From Candidatus Bathyarchaeota archaeon (GTDB taxonomy: Archaea; Thermoproteota; Bathyarchaeia; JAPDIZ01), in contig JAPDIZ010000002.1 of assembly GCA_029259355.1 (NCBI GenBank), forward strand, positions 248,001-312,000: DNA of 64,000 nt. The letters are read 5' to 3'. The notes under the pieces were generated by a model, which saw only the letters and a program-made list of their open reading frames with translations, had not been told where the DNA came from and ran no database searches. This document shows, piece by piece, positions 1,474 through 13,782 of this stretch; within the stretch, counting starts at the first letter, position 1, and each line of letters opens with the position of its first letter. A program made the translations under genes and the position numbers.

Positions 1474-2493
1474 ATGAAAGTGGTTATCGCAGGGCTAGGT
1501 ACGGTAGGCAGAGGGCTGCTCAAGGCTCTGAGCAAGAAGAAGAGCGAGCTTTGGAGAGCTTATGAGTTCTCTCCCAAGGTAGTTGCTGCAGTCAAATCCG
1601 ACGGAGCTTTCCTCGACGAAAACGGACTCGACCCAGCCTCAGTGGTCTCATCTTTAGATGGCAGAGGCTATGAAGAACATTCGGCTTGGGTAAGCGGCTA
1701 CACCGCCCTAGAAGCCATAAGAGACCTCGATTTCGACGTTTTGGTGGAGGCAACCCCTACCAACGTTGAGAGCGGGGAGCCTGGGCTATCCCACATACTA
1801 ACAGCGCTTGAGCGGGAGAAAGACATAGTCACCTCCAATAAAGGACCTTTAGTAATAGCCTTCGAGAAACTGATGGAGGCTGCTCGAGAACGTGGGCGCA
1901 TTCTTAGGTACGAGGCTACGGTTGGCGGAGCGATGCCAGTCTTCAGTTTGGTCGAGAAGTGCCTCAGGGGGAACAAGATCACCGCGATCAAAGGGATTCT
2001 CAACGGAACGACCAACTACATACTCACGCGGATGACCTACGAGCGGGTGCCATTCGACATTGCTCTCAAAGAGGCTCAGGAGCTGGGCTACGCTGAGGCG
2101 AATCCCTCCTTCGATATCGAGGGCATAGATGCGGCCTGCAAGCTCGTGATACTAGCGAACGCGATAATGGGCATAAGAGCAAAACTGAGCGATGTGGAGA
2201 TCGTTGGAATAACACGGATAACTCCAGAAGCCATCGAGCTGGCTAGGGAAGACGGCTATCTTATAAAGCATGTAGCCCAAATCGAGGAGGGGGTTTTGGA
2301 GGTTTCACTGAGGCTTGTTGACGAGAAGTCTCCGCTAGCGGTGGGTGGAACGCTGAACGTGGTCAGCGTATCCACCGACTTAGCTGGGGAGTTTACGGTG
2401 ATTGGGAGAGGAGCTGGTGAAGAAACGGTGAGCGCGGTGCTCAACGACCTTATTGATATATGGCTAGAGAGGAGAAGGGCGCTAGCGAGATGA
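1474..2493 (+). CDS. hom: Homoserine dehydrogenase
   Basis: GLGTVGRGLL NAD-binding motif; KGILNGTTNYILT; EAQELGYAEANPSFDIEGIDAACKL. Confidence 0.95.
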   Translation: MKVVIAGLGTVGRGLLKALSKKKSELWRAYEFSPKVVAAVKSDGAFLDENGLDPASVVSSLDGRGYEEHSAWVSGYTALEAIRDLDFDVLVEATPTNVESGEPGLSHILTALEREKDIVTSNKGPLVIAFEKLMEAARERGRILRYEATVGGAMPVFSLVEKCLRGNKITAIKGILNGTTNYILTRMTYERVPFDIALKEAQELGYAEANPSFDIEGIDAACKLVILANAIMGIRAKLSDVEIVGITRITPEAIELAREDGYLIKHVAQIEEGVLEVSLRLVDEKSPLAVGGTLNVVSVSTDLAGEFTVIGRGAGEETVSAVLNDLIDIWLERRRALAR

Positions 2494-3644
2494 CACCAAC
2501 CACGCGAGTTCTTTGGGACGCGGTTGAGTGGATGTGCAAGGCTAGGGAGGAAATAGGAGAGGGAATGGATGAGACATCAACCAAGAGAGCGCTCAAGGAC
2601 TACCACGCTAGGAGAAGGCCGAGGCACTGCGGCATGACTGTTCACAGTGGAATAGGCTGCGACAATAAGTGCGTCTACTGCTACGTCCCGGAGATGAGAT
2701 TTACAGCTGGTGTTCCACGCTCCTACCCCCTCAGCCCACGAGAATTTGCCTTAGCGCTAGCTAGCAACCCATGGATACTCCCCACTCGCTGGGGTACGTT
2801 TTTAGCCTTTGGCAGCGTAGCCGACCCCTTCCACCCCCTGCTCGCTGAAAAAACCGTGGATTATATGAGGGTGGCGAAAGCGGTCTTGGGCAACCCCATC
2901 CAGTTTTCCACGAAGATGACCCCCACTCAGCAGCACATGAGCTTCTTCGAAAATCTCCCTAGAGAGGGGGTTAGCCCCCTCGTAACCCTCGTCACAGTTA
3001 AGAGGCATAGAGCCCTTGAGCCTAAAGCTCCTTCCCCCAGCCAAAGGCTTGAGTTTGCTGAAAAGCTTTCTAAGATGGGGTATAGAGTGGCGCTGTTCCT
3101 ACGACCCATCATACCAGGAGTGACCGATAGAGAGATTTCGGACATACTAGATGAAGCAAAGAGCCATAGCGTAGACGTGGTGGTAGCTGGTTCGCTAAGG
3201 ATTACGGAGAATATCGTGGAGAGGATGAGGGCTTCGGGGATCGCTATCAACGAGGTGCTGAAGAGGGCAAAGAGAGTTAGCAAGAGGCAAACCCCCATCT
3301 ACTCAAGGGATTTGAAGAAAATGGTGGCTAGGGAATGCGAGAAGAGAGATATGGTGTACCTCGATAGCGCCTGCTGCGCTACCGCACTAGCTACTGAAGT
3401 ACCTTGTATCGAGCTCTGCTGGCTGGTTGGTAGGTGCACGGGATGCCCTAACAAGTGCTACGAGAAGGTTCCAGAGCTTTCAAGCAGTGAAGCAAAAGAG
3501 CTGCTTGCCGCTATTGGATGTGAAGAGGTTAGCAAGGTGGAGGTTGCCTCGGACACGGTAAGGACGAGGATAGCGAATCCAAGCCCGCAGCTAGCATACT
3601 TAGCGAAAACGCTTTTCAGGAGAAACGTGGTTTTCGAGAAGTAG
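2490..3644 (+). CDS. Radical SAM protein with Cys-rich C-terminus
   Basis: CDNKCVYCY (CxxxCxxC) motif; C-terminal CCATALATEVPCIELCWLVGRCTGCPNKC; ATGA overlap with hom favours the 2490 start over 2460. Confidence 0.85.
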   Translation: MTPTTRVLWDAVEWMCKAREEIGEGMDETSTKRALKDYHARRRPRHCGMTVHSGIGCDNKCVYCYVPEMRFTAGVPRSYPLSPREFALALASNPWILPTRWGTFLAFGSVADPFHPLLAEKTVDYMRVAKAVLGNPIQFSTKMTPTQQHMSFFENLPREGVSPLVTLVTVKRHRALEPKAPSPSQRLEFAEKLSKMGYRVALFLRPIIPGVTDREISDILDEAKSHSVDVVVAGSLRITENIVERMRASGIAINEVLKRAKRVSKRQTPIYSRDLKKMVARECEKRDMVYLDSACCATALATEVPCIELCWLVGRCTGCPNKCYEKVPELSSSEAKELLAAIGCEEVSKVEVASDTVRTRIANPSPQLAYLAKTLFRRNVVFEK

Positions 3645-3677: not shown

Positions 3678-3685
3678 TTTTATAA
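3678..3685 (+). promoter_or_regulatory. Putative TATA box (TTTATAAA) for the lysC-aro operon
   Basis: ggttttataaacaca about 40 nt upstream of the mini-ORF ATG. Confidence 0.5.
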
Positions 3686-3723
3686 ACACATTGTGTAGTT
3701 TATTGCGCTACTGGCTGGTTTCG

Positions 3724-3807
3724 ATGGTCGCCGCAGCCCTACCCACAGCTTCTCACACTACGTTCTGCTACTATAGCTATTGTACAAGCTTTAGCTTTAG
3801 TGGGTAG
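3724..3807 (+). CDS. Putative Phe/Tyr-rich leader peptide MVAAALPTASHTTFCYYSYCTSFSFSG
   Basis: ATG...TAG, 27 codons; 6 aromatic residues (3 F, 3 Y) within residues 14-25; upstream of an operon ending in pheA-tyrA. Confidence 0.4.
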   Translation: MVAAALPTASHTTFCYYSYCTSFSFSG

Positions 3808-3818
3808 GGGCGGCGGCC
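3726..3818 (+). promoter_or_regulatory. Structured operon leader: 19-bp stem with 2-nt bulge and 53-nt loop
   Basis: 3726-3746 GGTCGCCGC(AG)CCCTACCCAC pairs with 3800-3818 GTGGGTAGGGGCGGCGGCC (18 Watson-Crick + 1 G-U). Confidence 0.75.
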
Positions 3819-3871
3819 TCCGAGGAAACAGATCTTCTTGAATGCCCTTTTCCCGGGGGTCTGCCGCTTCC

Positions 3872-5137
3872 ATGACGGCAAAAGACAGCAGCCTATTGGT
3901 CGTAAAGTTCGGCGGAAGCTCCTTAGCCAGCGCGGAGAGAGTAAAGCTCGCCGCGGGCTCAGTTGCAGCAAAGGTCTCGTCAGGCACGAAGGTTGTGGTC
4001 GTCGTCTCGGCTATGGGAAAAACCACCGATGAGCTACTGCTCCTTGCAAAGGAAGTTACGGGGTCCTCAAAGGGCTTTGAGCTCGACGACATCTTGTCGA
4101 TGGGGGAGAGAACTAGCGCAAGAATATTCGCCGCTGCGCTAAATGCTCGTGGAGTTAAGGCTAAATACATTGACCCAGCCGACCCAAGCTGGCCCATAAT
4201 CACCGACGGAAAATTTGGAAACGCATCCCCGCTGCTTGACGAAACCGAGAAGAAAGTGCTTGAGACTATTCCGCCGATGCTGGAAAAGGGCATAACACCC
4301 ATCGTACCCGGCTTTTTGGGGAAGACTAGAGATGGCAAGATAACGACGCTAGGAAGAGGGGGAAGCGACGTAACCGCCATGCTCCTAGCGAGAGCGTTGA
4401 AGTGCGACGTAGTGCTCGTCTCCGACGTAGACGGCATACTCTCAGCAGACCCCAAGCTAGTTGAGAATCCAAGGAAGATTGATAGAATCTCGGTTGAGAA
4501 GCTAATTGGGCTCTCGAGTGTAGGGACGAAGTTCATCCACCAAAAAGCGCTTAGAGTTAAGCCAGACTACATAGACGTAAAGCTGGTTAACTTCAGAAAG
4601 GCTTCGCTCGACGCGTCTGGCACGGTGATCGAGGGATCTTTCCCAGAGCTTGTCGCTGAATCCTTAAGCAGCCCCCTTATGTCGATAACTATTGTGGGAG
4701 ATAACCTCACCGACAACCCCGAAGTCTTTCTGGAGCTAACGAGGATGATCAGGGCCTACGGAGCCCCCATCTTGGGGATGTCAGCTAACCACGACTCCAT
4801 AATCGCCTACCTACCGACAGTTTCGGAGCGAGGGCTCCTTGATAAGGTCCACGGCATTGTCGTCAGCAGGGAAAACGCTTTGGCAATGGCTGTTAGGCCT
4901 AAGCTCGCGCTCATCGTGGTGAAGGGGGTGGGGCTTGAGGAGGCTCCTGGAATGATCGCGAGGGTGACGACGCCGTTGCAGAGAGCGGGGATCAACGTCT
5001 ACGGCATATTCACCATAACCTCGAGCATCCAGCTCCTAGTCGGCTGGGAAGATAGGGAAGAGGCACTTAGGTTGATCAAGGAGGAGCTTGAGCTTTCCTC
5101 TCCCGGGATGGGGCAAAACAGAGAGGAGGTGGTGTAG
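3872..5137 (+). CDS. lysC: Aspartate kinase
   Basis: VVKFGGSSLASAERV; GRGGSDVTAMLLARAL; C-terminal ACT domains; ORF open from 3842, start at 3872 preferred. Confidence 0.93.
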   Translation: MTAKDSSLLVVKFGGSSLASAERVKLAAGSVAAKVSSGTKVVVVVSAMGKTTDELLLLAKEVTGSSKGFELDDILSMGERTSARIFAAALNARGVKAKYIDPADPSWPIITDGKFGNASPLLDETEKKVLETIPPMLEKGITPIVPGFLGKTRDGKITTLGRGGSDVTAMLLARALKCDVVLVSDVDGILSADPKLVENPRKIDRISVEKLIGLSSVGTKFIHQKALRVKPDYIDVKLVNFRKASLDASGTVIEGSFPELVAESLSSPLMSITIVGDNLTDNPEVFLELTRMIRAYGAPILGMSANHDSIIAYLPTVSERGLLDKVHGIVVSRENALAMAVRPKLALIVVKGVGLEEAPGMIARVTTPLQRAGINVYGIFTITSSIQLLVGWEDREEALRLIKEELELSSPGMGQNREEVV

Positions 5138-5944
5138 GTGGTTAGTGGTAAAGTGAGGAGGCTTTCGCGCATATTTAGTGAAGGTGGGAAAACCGTCATA
5201 GTCCCCATGGATCACGGAACAACCTCTGGCCCCATCAAGGGGCTGGAGGATATGCAGAAGATAATCGACTTGTTGAAGAAAACGCCTACAAACGCTGTGG
5301 TTATCCACAAAGGGATAGCTGAGCGTGTCGACACAACAGGTCTCGGCCTAATAGTGCACCTCTCAGCCAGCACAACCCTCGGCCCGTCTCCAAACTGGAA
5401 GGTATGCGTCACCTCTGTGGAGGAAGCTGTTAGGCTAGGCGCTGATGCGGTTTCAGTGCACGTAAACGTAGGCGATGAGCATGAGCCTGACATGCTAGCT
5501 AAGCTGGGGGAGGTAGCGGATGAGTGCGATGCTTGGGGGGTGCCCCTTCTCGCCATGATGTACCCGAGGGGTCCTAAGATACCCAGCGAGCACGACCCTG
5601 AGTGCGTCAAGCACGCAGCTAGGCTCGGTGCGGAGCTAGGGGCAGATGTCGTGAAGACTAACTACACGGGCTCAGTGGAGTCGTTTAGGGAAGTCGTGAG
5701 GTCTTGTCCCGTACCAGTAGTGATCGCTGGTGGGCCAAAGGCTCCTACGGTAGAGGGATTTCTGCGCATGGTCTGTGATGCGATGAAAGCGGGAGCTGCC
5801 GGGGTATCGATAGGTAGAAACGTATTTCAAGCGGAGAACCCAGCTAAAATGGCGACAGCTCTTTCAGCCATTGTCCACGAGGGGGCTTCGGCAGAAAGGG
5901 CTTTGGAGATACTAGGTGGTAGGGATGAAAGAACTCTGGATTAG
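5138..5944 (+). CDS. 2-amino-3,7-dideoxy-D-threo-hept-6-ulosonate (ADH) synthase / class I aldolase family
   Basis: [49 protein letters not shown]; next to DHQ synthase II. Confidence 0.9.
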
Positions 5945-7028
5945 GCTACGCAAAGGCTTAGACGAGTCTAGGAAGAAAAAGCTGCTTGAGGAAGTAGGCG
6001 ACAAGCTCTCTGGTGTCATATGCGAGGACGAGGGAGATGTTGCGCTAGCAAGAGCATACGATATAAGGAGGATAGCGTCTCCTCTAGGCGCGGACTTCGT
6101 CTTAGTTAACTTTAGAGATCTTGAAAAAGAGAGATCAAAGCTGATGGGAAAGAGAGTGATGATAGCTTTTCAGCCATCGGCTATGAAAGACATAAACTTC
6201 CTTGAGGAAAACCTCCCTGGAGGAGCTGAGTACCTCCTCGTTGAGAGCGAAGACTGGAGGGTTATTCCTCTAGAAAACGTCATCGCTAGGTTTCACGGAA
6301 AGCTCAAGATCCTAGCAAAAGCCAGCAACTCTATAGAGGCGAAGACTTTCTTAGAGACTCTTGAGTTAGGCGCAGATGGCATAGTCGTAGACGCGCAGTA
6401 CCCAGAGCAAATCGAGGAATTCTGGTCGGTCGTTGAGGAGGTTTCGAAGCCCAAGGCTGTGGTGAGGGAAGAAGCCATCGCTGTACCGCTCGTTCGGGCA
6501 AAGGTAGTGGACGTAAAGCCCGTCGGAATGGGTGCGAGAGTCTGCGTAGACACCTGCGACCTGCTCTCGGAGGGAGAGGGGCTTCTAGTGGGTAGCCAAG
6601 CCTCAGGACTCTTCCTAATACAAGCCGAGGTTGAGGACACACCACACACAGCAGCTAGGCCCTTTAGAGTTAATGCAGGGCCCGTCTCCTCTTACACACT
6701 CACCCCCGATGGGACCACCAAGTACCTCTCAGAGCTCTCAACTGGAGACAAAGTGTTGGTAGTGAGCAGGAAGGGAGAGACGAAGCCAGCTATCGTGGGC
6801 AGGACGAAGATAGAGTGGAGACCTATGGTCATGGTTGTTGCGGAGTACGAGGGCTCGATGTACAAGACGATCGTTCAAGAGGCTGAGACCATTAAGTTCG
6901 TCACACCAAATGGAGCAAAAGCCGTCACTGAGCTCAAGCCAGGAGATGAGGTGCTGATGCGCGTAGAGGAAGGGGGAGGAAGACACTTCGGCGTCTTGGT
7001 GAAGGAAGAGAGAATAATCGAGCGATGA
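5925..7028 (+). CDS. 3-dehydroquinate synthase II
   Basis: [64 protein letters not shown] 5925 in frame within ORF 5916. Confidence 0.92.
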
Positions 7029-7723
7029 AGCCAAGAATCTGCGTATCTCTTGTTGAACCAACTATTGAGCAGCTATGTAAAGCAGCTGTTGAAGCGGAGC
7101 AGGGCGGGGCCGACTTAGTTGAGCTGAGGATAGACCACCTCAGAGAGCTTGAGGAGTCAAAGAGAGTAAGTGAAGTTCTATCGAGCATCAAAATCCCTGC
7201 GATACTTACGTGCAGACCTCTTAGAGCAGGTGGTGGATTCTGGGGAAGGGAGAGGACACGGGTCTCCCTGTTGAGGAGCTTGTGTAGTGAGGGGTTTGAG
7301 TACGTTGATATAGAACACGATGTCAAAAATTTGCTAGACTTAGTTACCGAGGTCAGAGACCAAGGGGTAAAGGTCATATTATCGTTTCACGACTTCCAAG
7401 CTACGCCGAAGCTGAGGAAGCTCCAGAAGATAGCTAAGAAGCTTGACTCGTACCACCCAGATATCATAAAGGTAGTTACCTACGCGAGATATGTGGAAGA
7501 CAACTTGACGTGCCTCAGAGTGGTCTCCATACCGGTGTACAGAGAGCGGCTTATTTGCTTCGCAGCAGGTGTGCTGGGAAAACCGTCTCGAGTGCTAGCT
7601 CCCCTCTTCGGCGCTCCCTTTACCTACGCGTCGCTCGAGAAGGGAAAGGAAGCTGCTCCCGGCCAGCTCACACTCGAGGAGTTGAGGGAAGTCTATAGGA
7701 TTTTGGGGGCTGTGAGTGAGTGA
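7025..7723 (+). CDS. aroD: 3-dehydroquinate dehydratase, type I
   Basis: GADLVELRIDHL; ILTCRPLRAGG; VILSFHDFQATP; DIIKVVTYA. Confidence 0.92.
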   Translation: MKPRICVSLVEPTIEQLCKAAVEAEQGGADLVELRIDHLRELEESKRVSEVLSSIKIPAILTCRPLRAGGGFWGRERTRVSLLRSLCSEGFEYVDIEHDVKNLLDLVTEVRDQGVKVILSFHDFQATPKLRKLQKIAKKLDSYHPDIIKVVTYARYVEDNLTCLRVVSIPVYRERLICFAAGVLGKPSRVLAPLFGAPFTYASLEKGKEAAPGQLTLEELREVYRILGAVSE

Positions 7724-8580
7724 GGGTGCTCGGCAGCTCGATGTTGTGTTGCTTGATCGGCGACCCAGTTGAGCACTCGCTCAGCCCCCAGATGCACAAC
7801 GCGGTCTTTGAGCATCTAGGTATCAATGCTGTATACATTCCCCTAAGAGTACCCAAAGACGCTCTTGCAGCGTCCATCGAGATTATCCGAAAATCTAACT
7901 TCCTCGGAGCGAACGTAACCATGCCCCATAAGGAATCGGTGCTAGCGCTTCTAGACGAGGTCGATGGGGCTGCAAGCGGGATAGGGGCGGTAAACACCAT
8001 AGCCAAAGAGGGGGATAAGCTTGTGGGGTATAACACAGATGGACCTGCTGCGCTACACGCGATAGCGAGCAGAGTAAGCAAGCTAAGCAACAAATCTGCG
8101 TTGGTGCTTGGAGCGGGGGGAGCAGCGAAAGCCATCGCATGGCTCCTCGTAGAGCATGTCGCTGAGCTACACATAGCTAACAGAACATTCGAGAGGGCCA
8201 AGGAGCTGGCTAGGGCGTTGTCGAGAAAAGGAGTTGCTTATTCCCACCCGCTTGAGAGAGGGGTCTTGAAGCAACTGCTTCCCAAAGTGGATATAGTGAT
8301 TAATGCAACTTCAGTTGGCATGTATCCACGAGTAGACGAGACCATATTGACCAAGGAGTACTTCCTCCCGCATCACGTAGTATTTGATGCTGTGTACAAC
8401 CCACTCTTAACTAGGTTTTTGCAGGAGGCGAAAAAGGCTGGGGTTAGAGAGGTCATCCCAGGCATAGAGATGTTCGTGTTGCAGGGCGCATTAGCCTTCG
8501 AGAAGTGGACGGGGAGAAGAGCGCCCATCGAGCTGATGCGAAGCGTTGTCGAGAAAGAGCTGGGAGGAGGCAGCGTTTGA
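7720..8580 (+). CDS. aroE: Shikimate dehydrogenase
   Basis: CLIGDPVEHSLSPQMHNAVF; NVTMPHKES; LGAGGAAKAI; INATSVGMYP. Confidence 0.95.
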   Translation: MRVLGSSMLCCLIGDPVEHSLSPQMHNAVFEHLGINAVYIPLRVPKDALAASIEIIRKSNFLGANVTMPHKESVLALLDEVDGAASGIGAVNTIAKEGDKLVGYNTDGPAALHAIASRVSKLSNKSALVLGAGGAAKAIAWLLVEHVAELHIANRTFERAKELARALSRKGVAYSHPLERGVLKQLLPKVDIVINATSVGMYPRVDETILTKEYFLPHHVVFDAVYNPLLTRFLQEAKKAGVREVIPGIEMFVLQGALAFEKWTGRRAPIELMRSVVEKELGGGSV

Positions 8581-9458
8581 AGGGAGAAGCCGTTGCTTTC
8601 GGAGCCGCAACTATAGTCAACGCCGTCGCAACAGGCTTCGGCGCCGCTTTCGGAATAAACCTCTGGACGAGGTGCTGGGTAGAACTCACCGAGGATGTTG
8701 GAGTAGTTGAGGCGGAGATAAGGAGCGATCCCTATGAGGACACAACGCTCTTGAAGAAAGCTGTTGAGGTGGTTCTTCGGCGTTATGGAATGATGGAAAA
8801 GTTTGGGGCGAAAGCAGTTACCGAATCAAACATACCCATCGCGAGAGGGCTCAAGAGCAGCAGCGTTGCAGCAAATGCGGCCGTGCTCGCCACGCTGGCT
8901 GCTTTGGGTGTAAGTGAGTTTGACGACGTAGAGGTCGTCAAAATGGGAGTAGATGCTGCGGTAAAAGCGGGTGTGACCATAACGGGTGCTTTTGACGATG
9001 CCTGCGCTTCATTCTTCGGAAACGTAGTCTTCACAGACAATACCAATAGGCGTATTCTCAAGACCATCGAGTTCGGCCAAGACTACCACGTGGTTGCTTT
9101 GGTCCCAAGAGAAAAAGTGTACACAAAGTCCGTGAGCAGAGAGAGGATCAGATCTATCGCTCCCTTGGTTAGGTATGTCTTCGAGCTAGGCATGTCGGGG
9201 CGCTTGTGGGAGGCGCTAACCCTAAATGGCCTCCTATACTCCGCTGCGCTCGGAGCCAATCCCGCTCCAGCCATTGATGCGTTACAAGCGGGAGCTATGG
9301 CCTCAGGCCTCTCCGGAACGGGACCTGCGGTTATTGCTGTGGTGGACGCGGATAAGTTGGATGCAGTTGTTGAGGCGTGGGAAGCGTACGAGGCTGATGT
9401 GCTGATATGCAGAACAAACCGCAGAAAAGCTAAGCAGGTTGTGATAGGTGGCTGTTGA
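8577..9458 (+). CDS. aroK: Shikimate kinase, archaeal GHMP type
   Basis: IPIARGLKSSSVAANA; ITGAFDDACASFFG; SGLSGTGPAVIAV; TTG 8577 in frame overlapping the aroE stop. Confidence 0.9.
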   Translation: MKGEAVAFGAATIVNAVATGFGAAFGINLWTRCWVELTEDVGVVEAEIRSDPYEDTTLLKKAVEVVLRRYGMMEKFGAKAVTESNIPIARGLKSSSVAANAAVLATLAALGVSEFDDVEVVKMGVDAAVKAGVTITGAFDDACASFFGNVVFTDNTNRRILKTIEFGQDYHVVALVPREKVYTKSVSRERIRSIAPLVRYVFELGMSGRLWEALTLNGLLYSAALGANPAPAIDALQAGAMASGLSGTGPAVIAVVDADKLDAVVEAWEAYEADVLICRTNRRKAKQVVIGGC

Positions 9459-10747
9459 CCGTGGACATGTTAATTTATGGCGGAGCTGAGCTCTCTGGTG
9501 AGGTTCTAGCACCCCCCTCTAAGAGCTACGCACAGAGGGCTTTGCTAGCAGCTTCGCTGTCGCAGGGCAAGACGGTGATCAACAACTTGGGAAGTTCGCT
9601 AGACGTAATGGCCATGATTAACGTCTGTAGAGCGCTGGGTGCTCACATAGAATCTAGCGATAAAAGAGCGGTCGTCCATGGTTTTGAGCGCCCGAAGGCT
9701 CCGAGGAAACCCGTGAACTGTATAGAGTCTGCCGCGACAATGAGGTTTGTGACGCCGATAGCGTCTCTATCTAGAGGAAGAGTTGTGATAGATGGCGTCG
9801 GCTCGCTGCTGAGGAGGCCTATGCAACCCCTCATAGACGCGTTGAGAAAGCTGGGAGTGCGGTGTAGGTGCTTGGGAGATGGGGGAACGCCGCCCATCGA
9901 AGTCCGAGGAAGAGGCAGGTTGCCCGGCGGGAGGTGCGAAGTGCCTGGCCACGTCAGCTCACAGTTCGTCTCTGGGCTGCTCTTCGCTGCGCCTAAGGCT
10001 GAGCAGAACGTAGTTATCGAGGCTACAACCCCTCTCGAATCTAAGCCCTATGTGAAGATGACTATAGAGGTTCTTAGACTCCACAGGGTGGAGGTTTTCT
10101 CCGATGAGCAGATGTGGAGCTTTGAAGTGCCCTGTGGACAGGTCTATAGACCCACCATACACCGCGTACCGGGAGACTTTTCTTCAGCAGCGTTTATGAT
10201 GGCAGCTGCTCTAGTGACCAAGTCAAGGGTTACTGTCAAAGGTCTTAGGAGAGGTGGAAACCAAGCCGACGAGGTTTTCGTGGATGTCATTAGGGAGATG
10301 GGTGCTTGGGTCCGCGAGGAGGAAGAAGCCATAGAAGTTGGCTACGAAAATGGACTCAAGGCGATCTCCTTCGATGCCTCAGATGCTCCAGATACGGTGC
10401 CTATCCTTGCCGCCTTGGCTTGCTTCGCAAAAGGCGAGACAGAGATCTCTGGCATAGGTAGGCTCAGCCTAAAGGAGTCCGATAGGCCAAGAGCTATAGC
10501 GACAGAACTATCCAAGATGGGCGCAAAGATCTTGATAGAAGGCGATACGATGAGAATAAGGGGGTCGAAGCTGAGAGGAGCGCCTCTATACTCTTACGGA
10601 GATCATAGAATAGCGATGGCATGTGCAGTCGCTGCGCTCGGAGCGGAAGGCGTTTCTCGAGTCATCGGCGCAGATGCTGTGAACAAGTCTTACCCAAGTT
10701 TTTTCGAAGACTTAAACAAGTTGGGAGCTGAGGTTATTGCCTGGTAG
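9455..10747 (+). CDS. aroA: 3-phosphoshikimate 1-carboxyvinyltransferase
   Basis: PPSKSYAQRALLAASL; SQFVSGLLFAAP; YGDHRIAMACAVAAL. Confidence 0.95.
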   Translation: MTVDMLIYGGAELSGEVLAPPSKSYAQRALLAASLSQGKTVINNLGSSLDVMAMINVCRALGAHIESSDKRAVVHGFERPKAPRKPVNCIESAATMRFVTPIASLSRGRVVIDGVGSLLRRPMQPLIDALRKLGVRCRCLGDGGTPPIEVRGRGRLPGGRCEVPGHVSSQFVSGLLFAAPKAEQNVVIEATTPLESKPYVKMTIEVLRLHRVEVFSDEQMWSFEVPCGQVYRPTIHRVPGDFSSAAFMMAAALVTKSRVTVKGLRRGGNQADEVFVDVIREMGAWVREEEEAIEVGYENGLKAISFDASDAPDTVPILAALACFAKGETEISGIGRLSLKESDRPRAIATELSKMGAKILIEGDTMRIRGSKLRGAPLYSYGDHRIAMACAVAALGAEGVSRVIGADAVNKSYPSFFEDLNKLGAEVIAW

Positions 10748-11834
10748 CGTCTTCGGCCACTCCTTTAGAGTCATCGCGTTTGGGGAAAGCCACGGGAAGT
10801 GTGTAGGCGTCGTCGTTGACGGCTGCCCAGCTGGGCTTGAGCTTAGCGAAGAGGATGTCCAGAAGGAGCTGGATAGGAGAAGGCCCGGCCGCTTACCTCT
10901 AGTTTCTCCTCGAGTTGAGGAGGATAGAGTGGAGATTCTCTCCGGAGTATTTAGAGGAAGAACCACCGGAGCTCCAATATGCATGATCATCTGGAACAGA
11001 GGCTTTGACTCGTCTCCCTATGAAAAAATCGCGGATTTGCCTAGACCAGGACATGCAGATTACCCGGCTAGAGTCAGATACGGGGGCTTCAACGATTACA
11101 GGGGAGGAGGATACCTCTCGGGTAGGCTAACTGCCTCATTCGTTATGGCTGGTGCAGTTGCGAAGAAGCTCCTATCCACTAAGGGGATAGAGGTTTTGGC
11201 TCATCTAGTTCAAGTAGGTGGTGTTAAACTCTCTAGAGAGGTCTCTGTGGAGGAGGTTAGGGAAAAGGCCGCGAACAGCCCAGTGTTCTGCGCCGATCCC
11301 GGCACAGAAAAGCGCTTTGTAGAGGAGATTGAGAGCGCTGCTAGGGAAGGAGATAGCGTAGGAGGAGTCGTTGAGTGCTTAGTCCTCAACCTACCAGCAG
11401 GCATAGGAGACCCCTTGTTCGACTCTATAGACGCCGATTTAGCCAAAATTCTATTCGACATACCTGGCGTAAAAGGTGTGGAGTTTGGTGCAGGCTTTAG
11501 CGCCGCATCGCTGAAGGGTTCTCAAAACAACGACCCCTACGCCATCGTAGATGGAAGGGTGATGACCACCTCTAATAGGGCGGGAGGAGTTCTTGGAGGC
11601 CTGACAACAGGAATGCCGCTAGTGGTTAGGGTCGCCTTTAAGCCAACCCCCTCTATTCGAAAACCTCAGAGAACCATCAACCTCCGCACGCTCGAGGAGG
11701 CCCAGCTGGTCATCGAGGGGAGACACGACCCCTGTATAGCGATCCGCGGAGTACCCGTTGTGGAGGCCATGGTGGCTATGGTGCTCGTCGATCACATGCT
11801 TAGGCTTGGACACATACCCGCGGTTTTGAGGTGA
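10737..11834 (+). CDS. aroC: Chorismate synthase
   Basis: FGESHGKCVGVVVDGCPAGLELSEEDVQKELDRRRPG; SGRLTASFVMAGAVA; GGVLGGLTTGMPL. Confidence 0.96.
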   Translation: MPGSVFGHSFRVIAFGESHGKCVGVVVDGCPAGLELSEEDVQKELDRRRPGRLPLVSPRVEEDRVEILSGVFRGRTTGAPICMIIWNRGFDSSPYEKIADLPRPGHADYPARVRYGGFNDYRGGGYLSGRLTASFVMAGAVAKKLLSTKGIEVLAHLVQVGGVKLSREVSVEEVREKAANSPVFCADPGTEKRFVEEIESAAREGDSVGGVVECLVLNLPAGIGDPLFDSIDADLAKILFDIPGVKGVEFGAGFSAASLKGSQNNDPYAIVDGRVMTTSNRAGGVLGGLTTGMPLVVRVAFKPTPSIRKPQRTINLRTLEEAQLVIEGRHDPCIAIRGVPVVEAMVAMVLVDHMLRLGHIPAVLR

Positions 11835-11838
11835 GCGC

Positions 11839-12924
11839 TTGTCATACGAAGAGATCGCCAGCCTAAGAAGGAGGATAGACGAGGTAGATGCTCAGATCGC
11901 CTCGTTACTAGCTGAGAGGATCGGAATCGCTAGGAAGATTGGGGAGCATAAGCGGAGGCTTAAGCTACCCATAGAGGACGTGAGGCGAGAAAAAGAAGTT
12001 ATCAGCAGAGTTAGGCGACTGGCTCAGGACATGGGCGTCCCTCCCGAGGACTATGAGGCCATCTTTCGGGAGATAATATCCGCGTGCAAAAGGGCGCAGA
12101 GCAGGGAGAAGAAGGTCGCCTTTTTAGGGCCTTGGGGAACATTTACCGAAGAAGCTGCTAGGCGATTTTTCCCCAAAGCCGGGACGGAGTTCATCCCCGC
12201 ACCATCAATATACGACGTTTTCAGGATGGTGACTTCGCAAGATGCCGACTACGGCGTGGTCCCCGTTGAAAATAGCGTTGAGGGCTCAGTCAACGCTACG
12301 CTAGACCTGCTTTTCTCACATGATGTACAGGTGTGTGGCGAGGTCGAGCTACCGATACGCCACTGCCTGATAGTTGCCCCGGGAACCTCGTTGGAGGATA
12401 TTGACGTGATCATTTCACATCCACAAGCACTTGCTCAGTGTAGGAGGTTTTTGGAGGAAAGACTTCCGGGCAGAGCTCTTCGAGAAGTTGATAGTACCGC
12501 AAAAGCTGTTGAGATGCTCAAAGAGATTCGTAACGCAGCAGCTATCGGTACAGAGGTTGCCGCCGAGAGACATGGAATGGTAGTCATCGCTAGGGACATT
12601 CAAAACAGCCCAAGAAACTTCACGAGATTTTTGGCGATATCTACTCACGACCAACCGCCTACGGGAAGAGACAAAACATCTTTAGTCTTCTCCATACCCC
12701 ATGTGCCAGGCTCGCTTTACAAAGCGCTAGAGGTTTTTGCTAAGAGAAACATTAACCTAACCAAAATAGAGTCTAGGCCCACGAGGCATACGCCTTGGGA
12801 GTACATATTCTTCTTAGACTTCGAGGGGCATAGGCTACTTAGCCCGTATCACGAAGCTATCGAAGAGCTATCGAGGAGAGCGATTTTCGTTAAGGTACTG
12901 GGCTCCTACCCGAGGGCAACCTAA
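11839..12924 (+). CDS. pheA: Bifunctional chorismate mutase / prephenate dehydratase
   Basis: N-terminal AroQ (LRRRIDEVDAQIASLLAERIGIARKIGEHK); prephenate dehydratase FLGPWGTFTEEAA, GVVPVENSVEGSVN; C-terminal ACT. Confidence 0.94.
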   Translation: MSYEEIASLRRRIDEVDAQIASLLAERIGIARKIGEHKRRLKLPIEDVRREKEVISRVRRLAQDMGVPPEDYEAIFREIISACKRAQSREKKVAFLGPWGTFTEEAARRFFPKAGTEFIPAPSIYDVFRMVTSQDADYGVVPVENSVEGSVNATLDLLFSHDVQVCGEVELPIRHCLIVAPGTSLEDIDVIISHPQALAQCRRFLEERLPGRALREVDSTAKAVEMLKEIRNAAAIGTEVAAERHGMVVIARDIQNSPRNFTRFLAISTHDQPPTGRDKTSLVFSIPHVPGSLYKALEVFAKRNINLTKIESRPTRHTPWEYIFFLDFEGHRLLSPYHEAIEELSRRAIFVKVLGSYPRAT

Positions 12925-12987: not shown

Positions 12988-13782
12988 TTGAGGGTAGCGA
13001 TTGTAGGCGGATATGGTAGATTTGGTCGATGGATGGCTAAGTGGCTTAGAAACGATGGCTTTGAAATCGTTTTGTGCGGTAGATCTTTGGAAAAAGCTAT
13101 CAGCGCAGCCAAAGCGCTGGGGGTGGATTTTGCCTCTATCGACGAGGCAGTTAGCACAAGCGACATCGTAATCGTTTCGGTGCCTATTCCCGCGACCTAT
13201 GAGGTTTGCCGCCTCGTAGCCAACAAAATGAGAAAGAGGGCGCTTTTGGTAGAGGTTTCCTCGGTCAAATCCGGCATAGCGGATAGACTGCAAAAAGAGC
13301 TCAAAGAAGTAGAGTTCGTGAGCATACACCCGCTTTTTGGCCCCAGAGCCGAAGGGCTTAGTGGACAAAACGTAGTGTTAATCGAAGGATGTTCGGAGAG
13401 GGGATCCAGATGCGTTGAGGAGTACTTGATAAAGCATAAAGCCGAAGTAGTCTACATGAGCGTTAAAGACCACGATAGAGCTATGGCGCTCCTCCAAGCC
13501 ATCCACCACCTATCCCTCCTCGGCTACGCTTTACTGCTAAACCAAGCCTATAACGAGTACGGTTTAGACATAGAAAAGCTCGCAACAAGATCTCTTAGGG
13601 AGACGCTCGCAGTCATCGAGTCGATAGTCGAGAACAGAAACTCCATTTGCTGGATATACGAGCACAACCCCTTCGTCGAGGAGTTTTTCAAAACCTTCCT
13701 TAAAGCCGTAGAGGACATAGCCAGGAAGGGTATCAGCTGGGCGCTCGATGAGGTTGGTGAGCTTCTAAAGCGCATTGGGTAG
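12988..13782 (+). CDS. tyrA: Prephenate dehydrogenase
   Basis: VAIVGGYGRFGRWMAKWL; VSSVKSGI; SIHPLFGP; TTG start. Confidence 0.88.
   Translation: MRVAIVGGYGRFGRWMAKWLRNDGFEIVLCGRSLEKAISAAKALGVDFASIDEAVSTSDIVIVSVPIPATYEVCRLVANKMRKRALLVEVSSVKSGIADRLQKELKEVEFVSIHPLFGPRAEGLSGQNVVLIEGCSERGSRCVEEYLIKHKAEVVYMSVKDHDRAMALLQAIHHLSLLGYALLLNQAYNEYGLDIEKLATRSLRETLAVIESIVENRNSICWIYEHNPFVEEFFKTFLKAVEDIARKGISWALDEVGELLKRIG

Follow-up and report, generated by a model that had tools for sequence, protein, structure and literature searches.

The aromatic operon and its leader ORF

The stretch of DNA that was analysed, called the window here, is 64 kb long and carries an operon on its forward strand that starts with lysC, encoding aspartate kinase (3872..5137). 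The start codon at 3872 was chosen by comparison with relatives and is the probable one. On the same strand follow nine genes of the aromatic pathway, encoding the archaeal first aromatic enzyme ADH synthase (2-amino-3,7-dideoxy-D-threo-hept-6-ulosonate, TIGR01949; 5138..5944), 3-dehydroquinate synthase II (DHQ synthase II; 5916..7028), the type I dehydroquinase AroD (7025..7723), the shikimate dehydrogenase AroE (7720..8580), the archaeal shikimate kinase (TIGR01920; 8505..9458), the EPSP synthase AroA (9455..10747), the chorismate synthase AroC (10737..11834), the chorismate mutase/prephenate dehydratase PheA with an ACT domain (11839..12924) and the prephenate dehydrogenase TyrA (12988..13782). 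Since aspartate semialdehyde is a precursor of the aromatic pathway in Archaea (PMC4162585), lysC, the gene that supplies it, belongs to this pathway. Directly upstream of the operon lie genes for a homoserine dehydrogenase (1474-2493) and a radical SAM protein (2460-3644), so aspartate-family and aromatic genes adjoin.

Ahead of lysC and the nine aromatic genes, an ORF of 27 codons (3724..3807, forward strand) encodes the peptide MVAAALPTASHTTFCYYSYCTSFSFSG, followed by a stop codon. Codons 14-25 (3763..3798, forward strand) read FCYYSYCTSFSF with three Phe and three Tyr, and are regarded as the control block from the translation and from the block position in relatives. Phe and Tyr, which the block is proposed to sense, are made by the downstream operon. 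A TATA box, TTTATAAA, is found at 3679..3686 (forward strand), 37 nt from the leader ATG and with the same spacing as in relatives; the transcript start in the window is predicted at about 3703-3712. The ORF with its translation, the TATA-type box and the gene identities downstream had been described in an earlier note on this DNA and are confirmed here. Its caveat that no strong Shine-Dalgarno sequence precedes the ATG also holds.

Among all window ORFs on both strands, this leader is the only one whose last 14 codons include six or more Phe/Tyr. When the 200 nt upstream of lysC in the window were dinucleotide-shuffled, an equally Phe/Tyr-rich ORF appeared at the same position in 0.42% of the shuffles, so that the significance of the window ORF on its own is modest (p 0.004). 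The exact ORF is without a close homologue because only one genome in the collection belongs to the window's order. Its support therefore comes from position, composition and architecture and not from a near-relative alignment; the ORF type is conserved throughout the class.

Conservation of the leader among lysC loci

The lysC gene was taken from 257 genomes of the same class, and the upstream DNA was read at 106 loci; the genomes in the comparison are mostly incomplete. A locus was counted as a carrier when an ORF upstream of lysC had at least 5 Phe, Tyr or Trp in its last 13 codons. The earlier note had proposed an alignment of the lysC upstream regions and had named a lack of conservation in close relatives as evidence against its reading. 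The alignment shows an ATG-initiated ORF with a Phe/Tyr cluster in 77 of the 106 class loci while the other codons drift, and other classes carry the leader as well. The 77 ORFs end 44-87 nt before lysC and span nine families (f1, f2, f3, f6, f10, f17, f18, f21 and f22). The typical leader is about 26 codons long; its N-terminal half is free, and its last 10-14 codons form a block that is mostly Phe/Tyr, as in NPYYYYYYYCFF, QFFSFGYYFYYYFN or MFYSFSYFFYN, each followed by the stop codon. Further peptides, likewise ending at a stop, are MVNKGKEKLLSSTAYFKELNTFNPYYYYYYYCFF (L003), MNATLQTTNAFTRFYSFEYSFYYYFN (L004), MNSHSTTTLTNSSMFYSFSYFFYN (L005), MSDPASLRNFFAHEFFFYYNYF (L009) and MTNNSGKECWSSQFFSFGYYFYYYFS (L167). 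Outside the class but within the phylum, for example, the leaders MASEGSRKKVFGFFYGFYFYFYFGP (L258), MFNTENLCPGFGKTFDSYSFSYFFFYSF (L262) and MRSRENKTKVVFFTFWSYFYFALA (L271) were found, also with a stop codon at the end.

A lysC search of named genomes returned distant relatives only, with Bathyarchaeota ex4484_205 as the nearest archaeal match. The upstream ORFs of a genome from a different class of the phylum (G335) are the same as those of ex4484_205.

A stricter test asked for an ORF that stops 40-100 nt upstream of lysC and has six or more Phe/Tyr among its final 13 codons. It was passed by 72 of the 106 loci as against 0.34% of the dinucleotide shuffles, an enrichment of about 200-fold, and antisense readings gave none. 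When all 20 residues were compared at the 106 loci, Phe and Tyr stood out and Trp did not. These numbers bear on the caveat of the earlier note that the ORF may have arisen by chance. A length of 27 codons is indeed unremarkable, and AT-rich genomes hold low-complexity, Phe-rich short ORFs. Against a chance ORF in an AT-rich leader stand the enrichment over shuffles, the drift pattern of the codons, the many families and the restriction to aro-linked lysC genes; chance is refuted for the class and is an extremely improbable explanation.

Two further groups of loci were noted. Four loci of the same phylum (L265, L267, L268 and L269, family f32) have aromatic-tailed ORFs that finish with ..GEGFYSMFHYY and a stop about 22-26 nt before lysC, apparently without an intervening hairpin, which may reflect a different coupling geometry. 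L272 and L274 have candidates that mix Trp and Tyr (AAYSWPLYGYSW and MAGYSWYCYSQ) before an aro-linked lysC, perhaps for Trp sensing too.

Specificity for the aro operon

When lysC paralogues outside the aro operon were inspected in the same-class genomes, none of 20 had the leader ORF, the maximum being 2 Phe/Tyr. The class loci without a leader number 29. Of these, 23 are aro-linked and belong to the families f4, f8, f16 and f19, which have a different element; four are lysC genes without an aro gene after them (L015-L018); the remaining ones are the distant L031 and L118, where the contig ends close upstream. In a scan of about 1.08 Mb of one relative, G007, the lysC leader was the only ORF to have both a Phe/Tyr tail and a strong hairpin immediately past its stop. 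Leaders rich in any other amino acid and followed by a strong post-stop hairpin were absent from the same 1.08 Mb. The device therefore looks specific for the aro operon in that genome. In the same class, no convincing Trp-rich leader before trpE or His-rich leader before hisG was seen.

Codon-level conservation

In the families f6 and f18, the N-terminal half of the leader is equally variable at the first, second and third codon positions, which indicates that its peptide sequence is not under selection, yet the reading frame stays open. In the same families, the aromatic block keeps Phe and Tyr through many Phe-Tyr exchanges and synonymous changes. In each of the 77 loci, the window locus among them, the last aromatic codon precedes the stop by 1-3 codons.

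The distance from the block to the stem after the stop was measured in 40 loci that were defined by DNA motifs alone, without ORF calls. It was 33, 36, 39 or 42 nt, a multiple of 3, in 33 of the 40 loci, and the first in-frame stop occurred 2-7 nt before the stem in all 40. The 3-nt period was absent from the hairpin loop and from the stem-to-lysC distance in these loci. Block lengths in whole codons and a stop that is always at the stem argue against chance and against a purely structural RNA. An untranslated structured or protein-binding leader, with the ORF as a by-product of conserved U-rich segments pairing among themselves and with the 5' end, would account for the strong hairpins and for the helix that f6 and another class form from the 5' end of the leader and the block. 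However, it does not explain why the N-terminal half drifts and remains open, nor why the block is encoded by many nucleotide sequences in families that share no RNA sequence, and the window and 13 relatives gave no Rfam match. We consider this explanation very improbable. The Rfam comparison of the window and the 13 relatives likewise led us to reject a lysine riboswitch or a T-box.

Nascent chains that are rich in aromatic residues can act inside the ribosomal exit tunnel. A TnaC-like sensor, where the aromatic peptide stalls the ribosome on free Phe or Tyr and not on tRNA charging, would fit this property and a block that ends right by the stop codon. The blocks of the families differ, however, and have no fixed register (YYYYYYYCFF, SFDYGFYYYGYFP, FYSFSYFFYN and FFTYFSGYYTTF), and the free interchange of Phe and Tyr is more in keeping with codon identity than with a specific arrest sequence. 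Nascent-peptide arrest is thus an unlikely basis of the leader. A Phe/Tyr-tailed ORF is kept at the same place in many archaeal families; therefore, the ribosome probably senses the supply of Phe and Tyr.

RNA structure of the leader

In the window, the start of the ORF (3726..3746, segment 1) is paired with a stretch that covers the ORF end and the first bases past the stop (3800..3818, segment 2), both on the forward strand, with an RNA fold of -49 kcal/mol (z -3.5). A second hairpin with four T in its loop spans the gap from the leader stop to the lysC ATG (about 3809..3868, forward strand, z -3.0). Segment 2 overlaps the 5' arm of this post-stop hairpin. The two hairpins share one strand and are mutually exclusive. 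Both had been overlooked in the earlier note.

The post-stop hairpin is a general feature of the carriers, beginning 0-3 nt past the stop in 73 of 77 loci with a median z of -2.7. Its stem sequences are unrelated between families, as seen with GCCCAGAAC/GUUCUGGGC, GCUUCGAAACC/GGUUUCGAAGC followed by UUUUUGUUUU, and GGAAGAGC/GCUCUUCC followed by UUUUU, and its position and pairing persist despite these differences. A run of at least four T occurs in or after the hairpin at 61 of the 77 loci, often in the loop and not after the stem. The families f2, f10 and part of f18 show a clear U-tract after the hairpin; the T-run of f6 and of the window is short or in the loop, and the f6 stem has no U-tract after it. 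Most relatives have a hairpin that ends 14-25 nt before the lysC start codon with the ribosome-binding site outside.

For 48 of the 68 loci, as for the window, the best TATA match was located between positions -50 and -41 relative to the leader ATG. With this spacing, the leader ORF would begin about 10-25 nt from the transcript start, which we infer to lie upstream of the leader ATG.

In many loci, the aromatic block can also pair with the segment that precedes the leader ATG. This P1 helix reached significance in 30 of the 84 loci; in the window it did not (p 0.2). In f6, GGUUCGAAGC pairs with GCUUCGACU; in L271, the partners are AGCUCCAGAGG and CUUCUGGAGCU. The latter helix, which links the 5' end of the leader to the block, is very strong in L270, L271 and L273 (family f35 of another class), where the post-stop stem overlaps the stop codon itself and the block contains Trp. 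In four f18 loci (L005, L123, L130 and L136), the sequence CUGGG(C) just before the leader ATG repeats the 3' arm of the post-stop hairpin; it could therefore compete for the 5' arm GCCCAG and is a candidate switch.

The output step and the proposed mechanism

The order of the elements is promoter, leader ORF, stop-adjacent hairpin, usually with a U-rich tract in or after it, ribosome-binding site and lysC. As far as can be read from sequence, such an arrangement has the anatomy of a ribosome-mediated attenuator that would sense Phe- and Tyr-tRNA. The last aromatic codon lies 1-3 codons before the stop, so a slowed ribosome would cover the base of the hairpin. When the first 4 or 10 nt were removed from the hairpin region, the mean stability dropped from -18.4 to -10.3 or -7.0 kcal/mol, respectively.

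The post-stop hairpin might alternatively gate the access of ribosomes to lysC. Such translational control concerns the output step and overlaps with the attenuator reading. In the window, the hairpin comes to within 3 nt of the lysC ATG and contains the G-rich stretch before it. One strand is common to both window hairpins and the second extends to the lysC start, so that translational control is possible in the window too; the f6 stem without a following U-tract also speaks in its favour. In most relatives, however, the position of the hairpin leaves the ribosome-binding site free, and the accessibility of the lysC ribosome-binding site showed no systematic change between simulated ribosome positions. 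Translational gating is conceivable but somewhat unlikely. Sequestration of the Shine-Dalgarno sequence as a general output is unsupported by the simulated accessibility. A classical 2:3 antiterminator was not found in the relatives. With no systematic switch in ribosome-binding-site accessibility and no antiterminator found, occlusion of the post-stop hairpin and the U-tract by the ribosome is the output step that we prefer.

According to PMC8716108, U-tracts together with aCPSF1/FttA dictate termination in Archaea. For FttA and a coupled ribosome, steric exclusion has been hypothesised (PMC11616081), and archaeal transcription-translation coupling is established (French et al. 2007, cited in PMC11616081). 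From this we infer a tie between FttA termination, coupling and the lysC leader.

Attenuation by occlusion would then proceed as follows, the sign of the control being an assumption based on pathway logic. Under a shortage of Phe or Tyr, the pioneer ribosome would slow down in the aromatic block. Its leading edge would sit on the base of the post-stop hairpin and hold it open, closely trailing the RNA polymerase, which would read through into lysC. With an ample supply of Phe and Tyr, the ribosome would run through and depart, the hairpin would form and transcription would terminate at the U-rich tract, possibly with the help of the archaeal termination factor FttA/aCPSF1. The upstream helix that many species have between the block and the 5' end of the leader may pause the polymerase or restrict translation of the leader to one round.

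Taken together, the leader is probably a ribosome-mediated attenuator of the lysC-aro-pheA-tyrA operon whose translated peptide reads the charging of tRNA-Phe and tRNA-Tyr. The earlier note had proposed such Phe/Tyr sensing, and comparative genomics across this class and other classes supports it.

A second leader element in other families

In the families f4, f8, f16 and f19, a different conserved element takes the place of the leader before the aro-linked lysC. It consists of tandem repeats, GGTGA (or GGAGG)-N-TTTTC and GGTGA-N-TTTAC, about 90-180 nt upstream of lysC. The motif is GGGTGA-N5-TTTTC-GGTGA-N5-TTTAC in f16 and GGAGG-N6-GTTTTCA-GGAGG-N6-GTTTAC in f4/f8. The element was observed at L006, L161, L170, L182, L192, L197, L010-L014, L193 and L194, and also at L007, L008, L131 and other f19 loci. 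Possible readings are short peptides, HVFGDGVY-like or YVFRRTCVY (VFRRxCVY-like), and in f19 MGGHLYWHKPAPETLIQV; alternatively, the element could be an RNA or a protein-binding repeat. The Rfam comparison gave no match for it.

Significance and comparison with known systems

For the phylum as a whole, we give an even chance to a wider proposal. The whole aromatic pathway would be controlled by attenuation, where a ribosome slowed on the Phe/Tyr leader holds the stop-adjacent hairpin open and blocks archaeal termination. The device would have evolved independently or be as old as the phylum, and would have been replaced in some families by the second, undescribed element. If this is true, Archaea, too, control biosynthesis by codon-level ribosome stalling. 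Coupling, FttA-dependent termination and the sensing of tRNA charge would become directly testable in Archaea, and a common origin or convergence with bacterial attenuation would become a question. In searches of an open full-text library, no report of leader-peptide attenuation in Archaea was found; subscription papers could hold one.

Leader-peptide attenuation is a textbook mechanism of bacteria. The bacterial pheA/pheL, pheST and trp attenuators resemble the archaeal leader in having a short promoter-proximal ORF rich in codons for the end product, a stop beside RNA hairpins and a biosynthetic operon downstream. In contrast to these, the archaeal leader lies in a setting of archaeal promoter and termination machinery, carries both Phe and Tyr codons, is without a recognisable competing 2:3 antiterminator, often has its U-tract in the hairpin loop and has a hairpin that abuts the stop codon. 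The actinobacterial and corynebacterial attenuators such as that of ilvBNC (PMC11857589, PMC10272879) also place a leader ORF with regulatory codons before amino-acid biosynthesis genes, but they are bacterial, serve branched-chain amino acids and have another hairpin arrangement. T-box leader RNAs sense tRNA charging upstream of amino-acid genes, as is proposed for the archaeal leader; they bind the tRNA with RNA, whereas the archaeal leader has an ORF and, in the window and 13 relatives, no Rfam T-box match. TrpY and the Lrp-type regulators, among them LrpA2, which has been suggested as a regulator of aromatic genes in Halobacterium (PMC4162585), likewise control archaeal aromatic amino-acid genes, but they do so as DNA-binding proteins and not through the translation of a leader.
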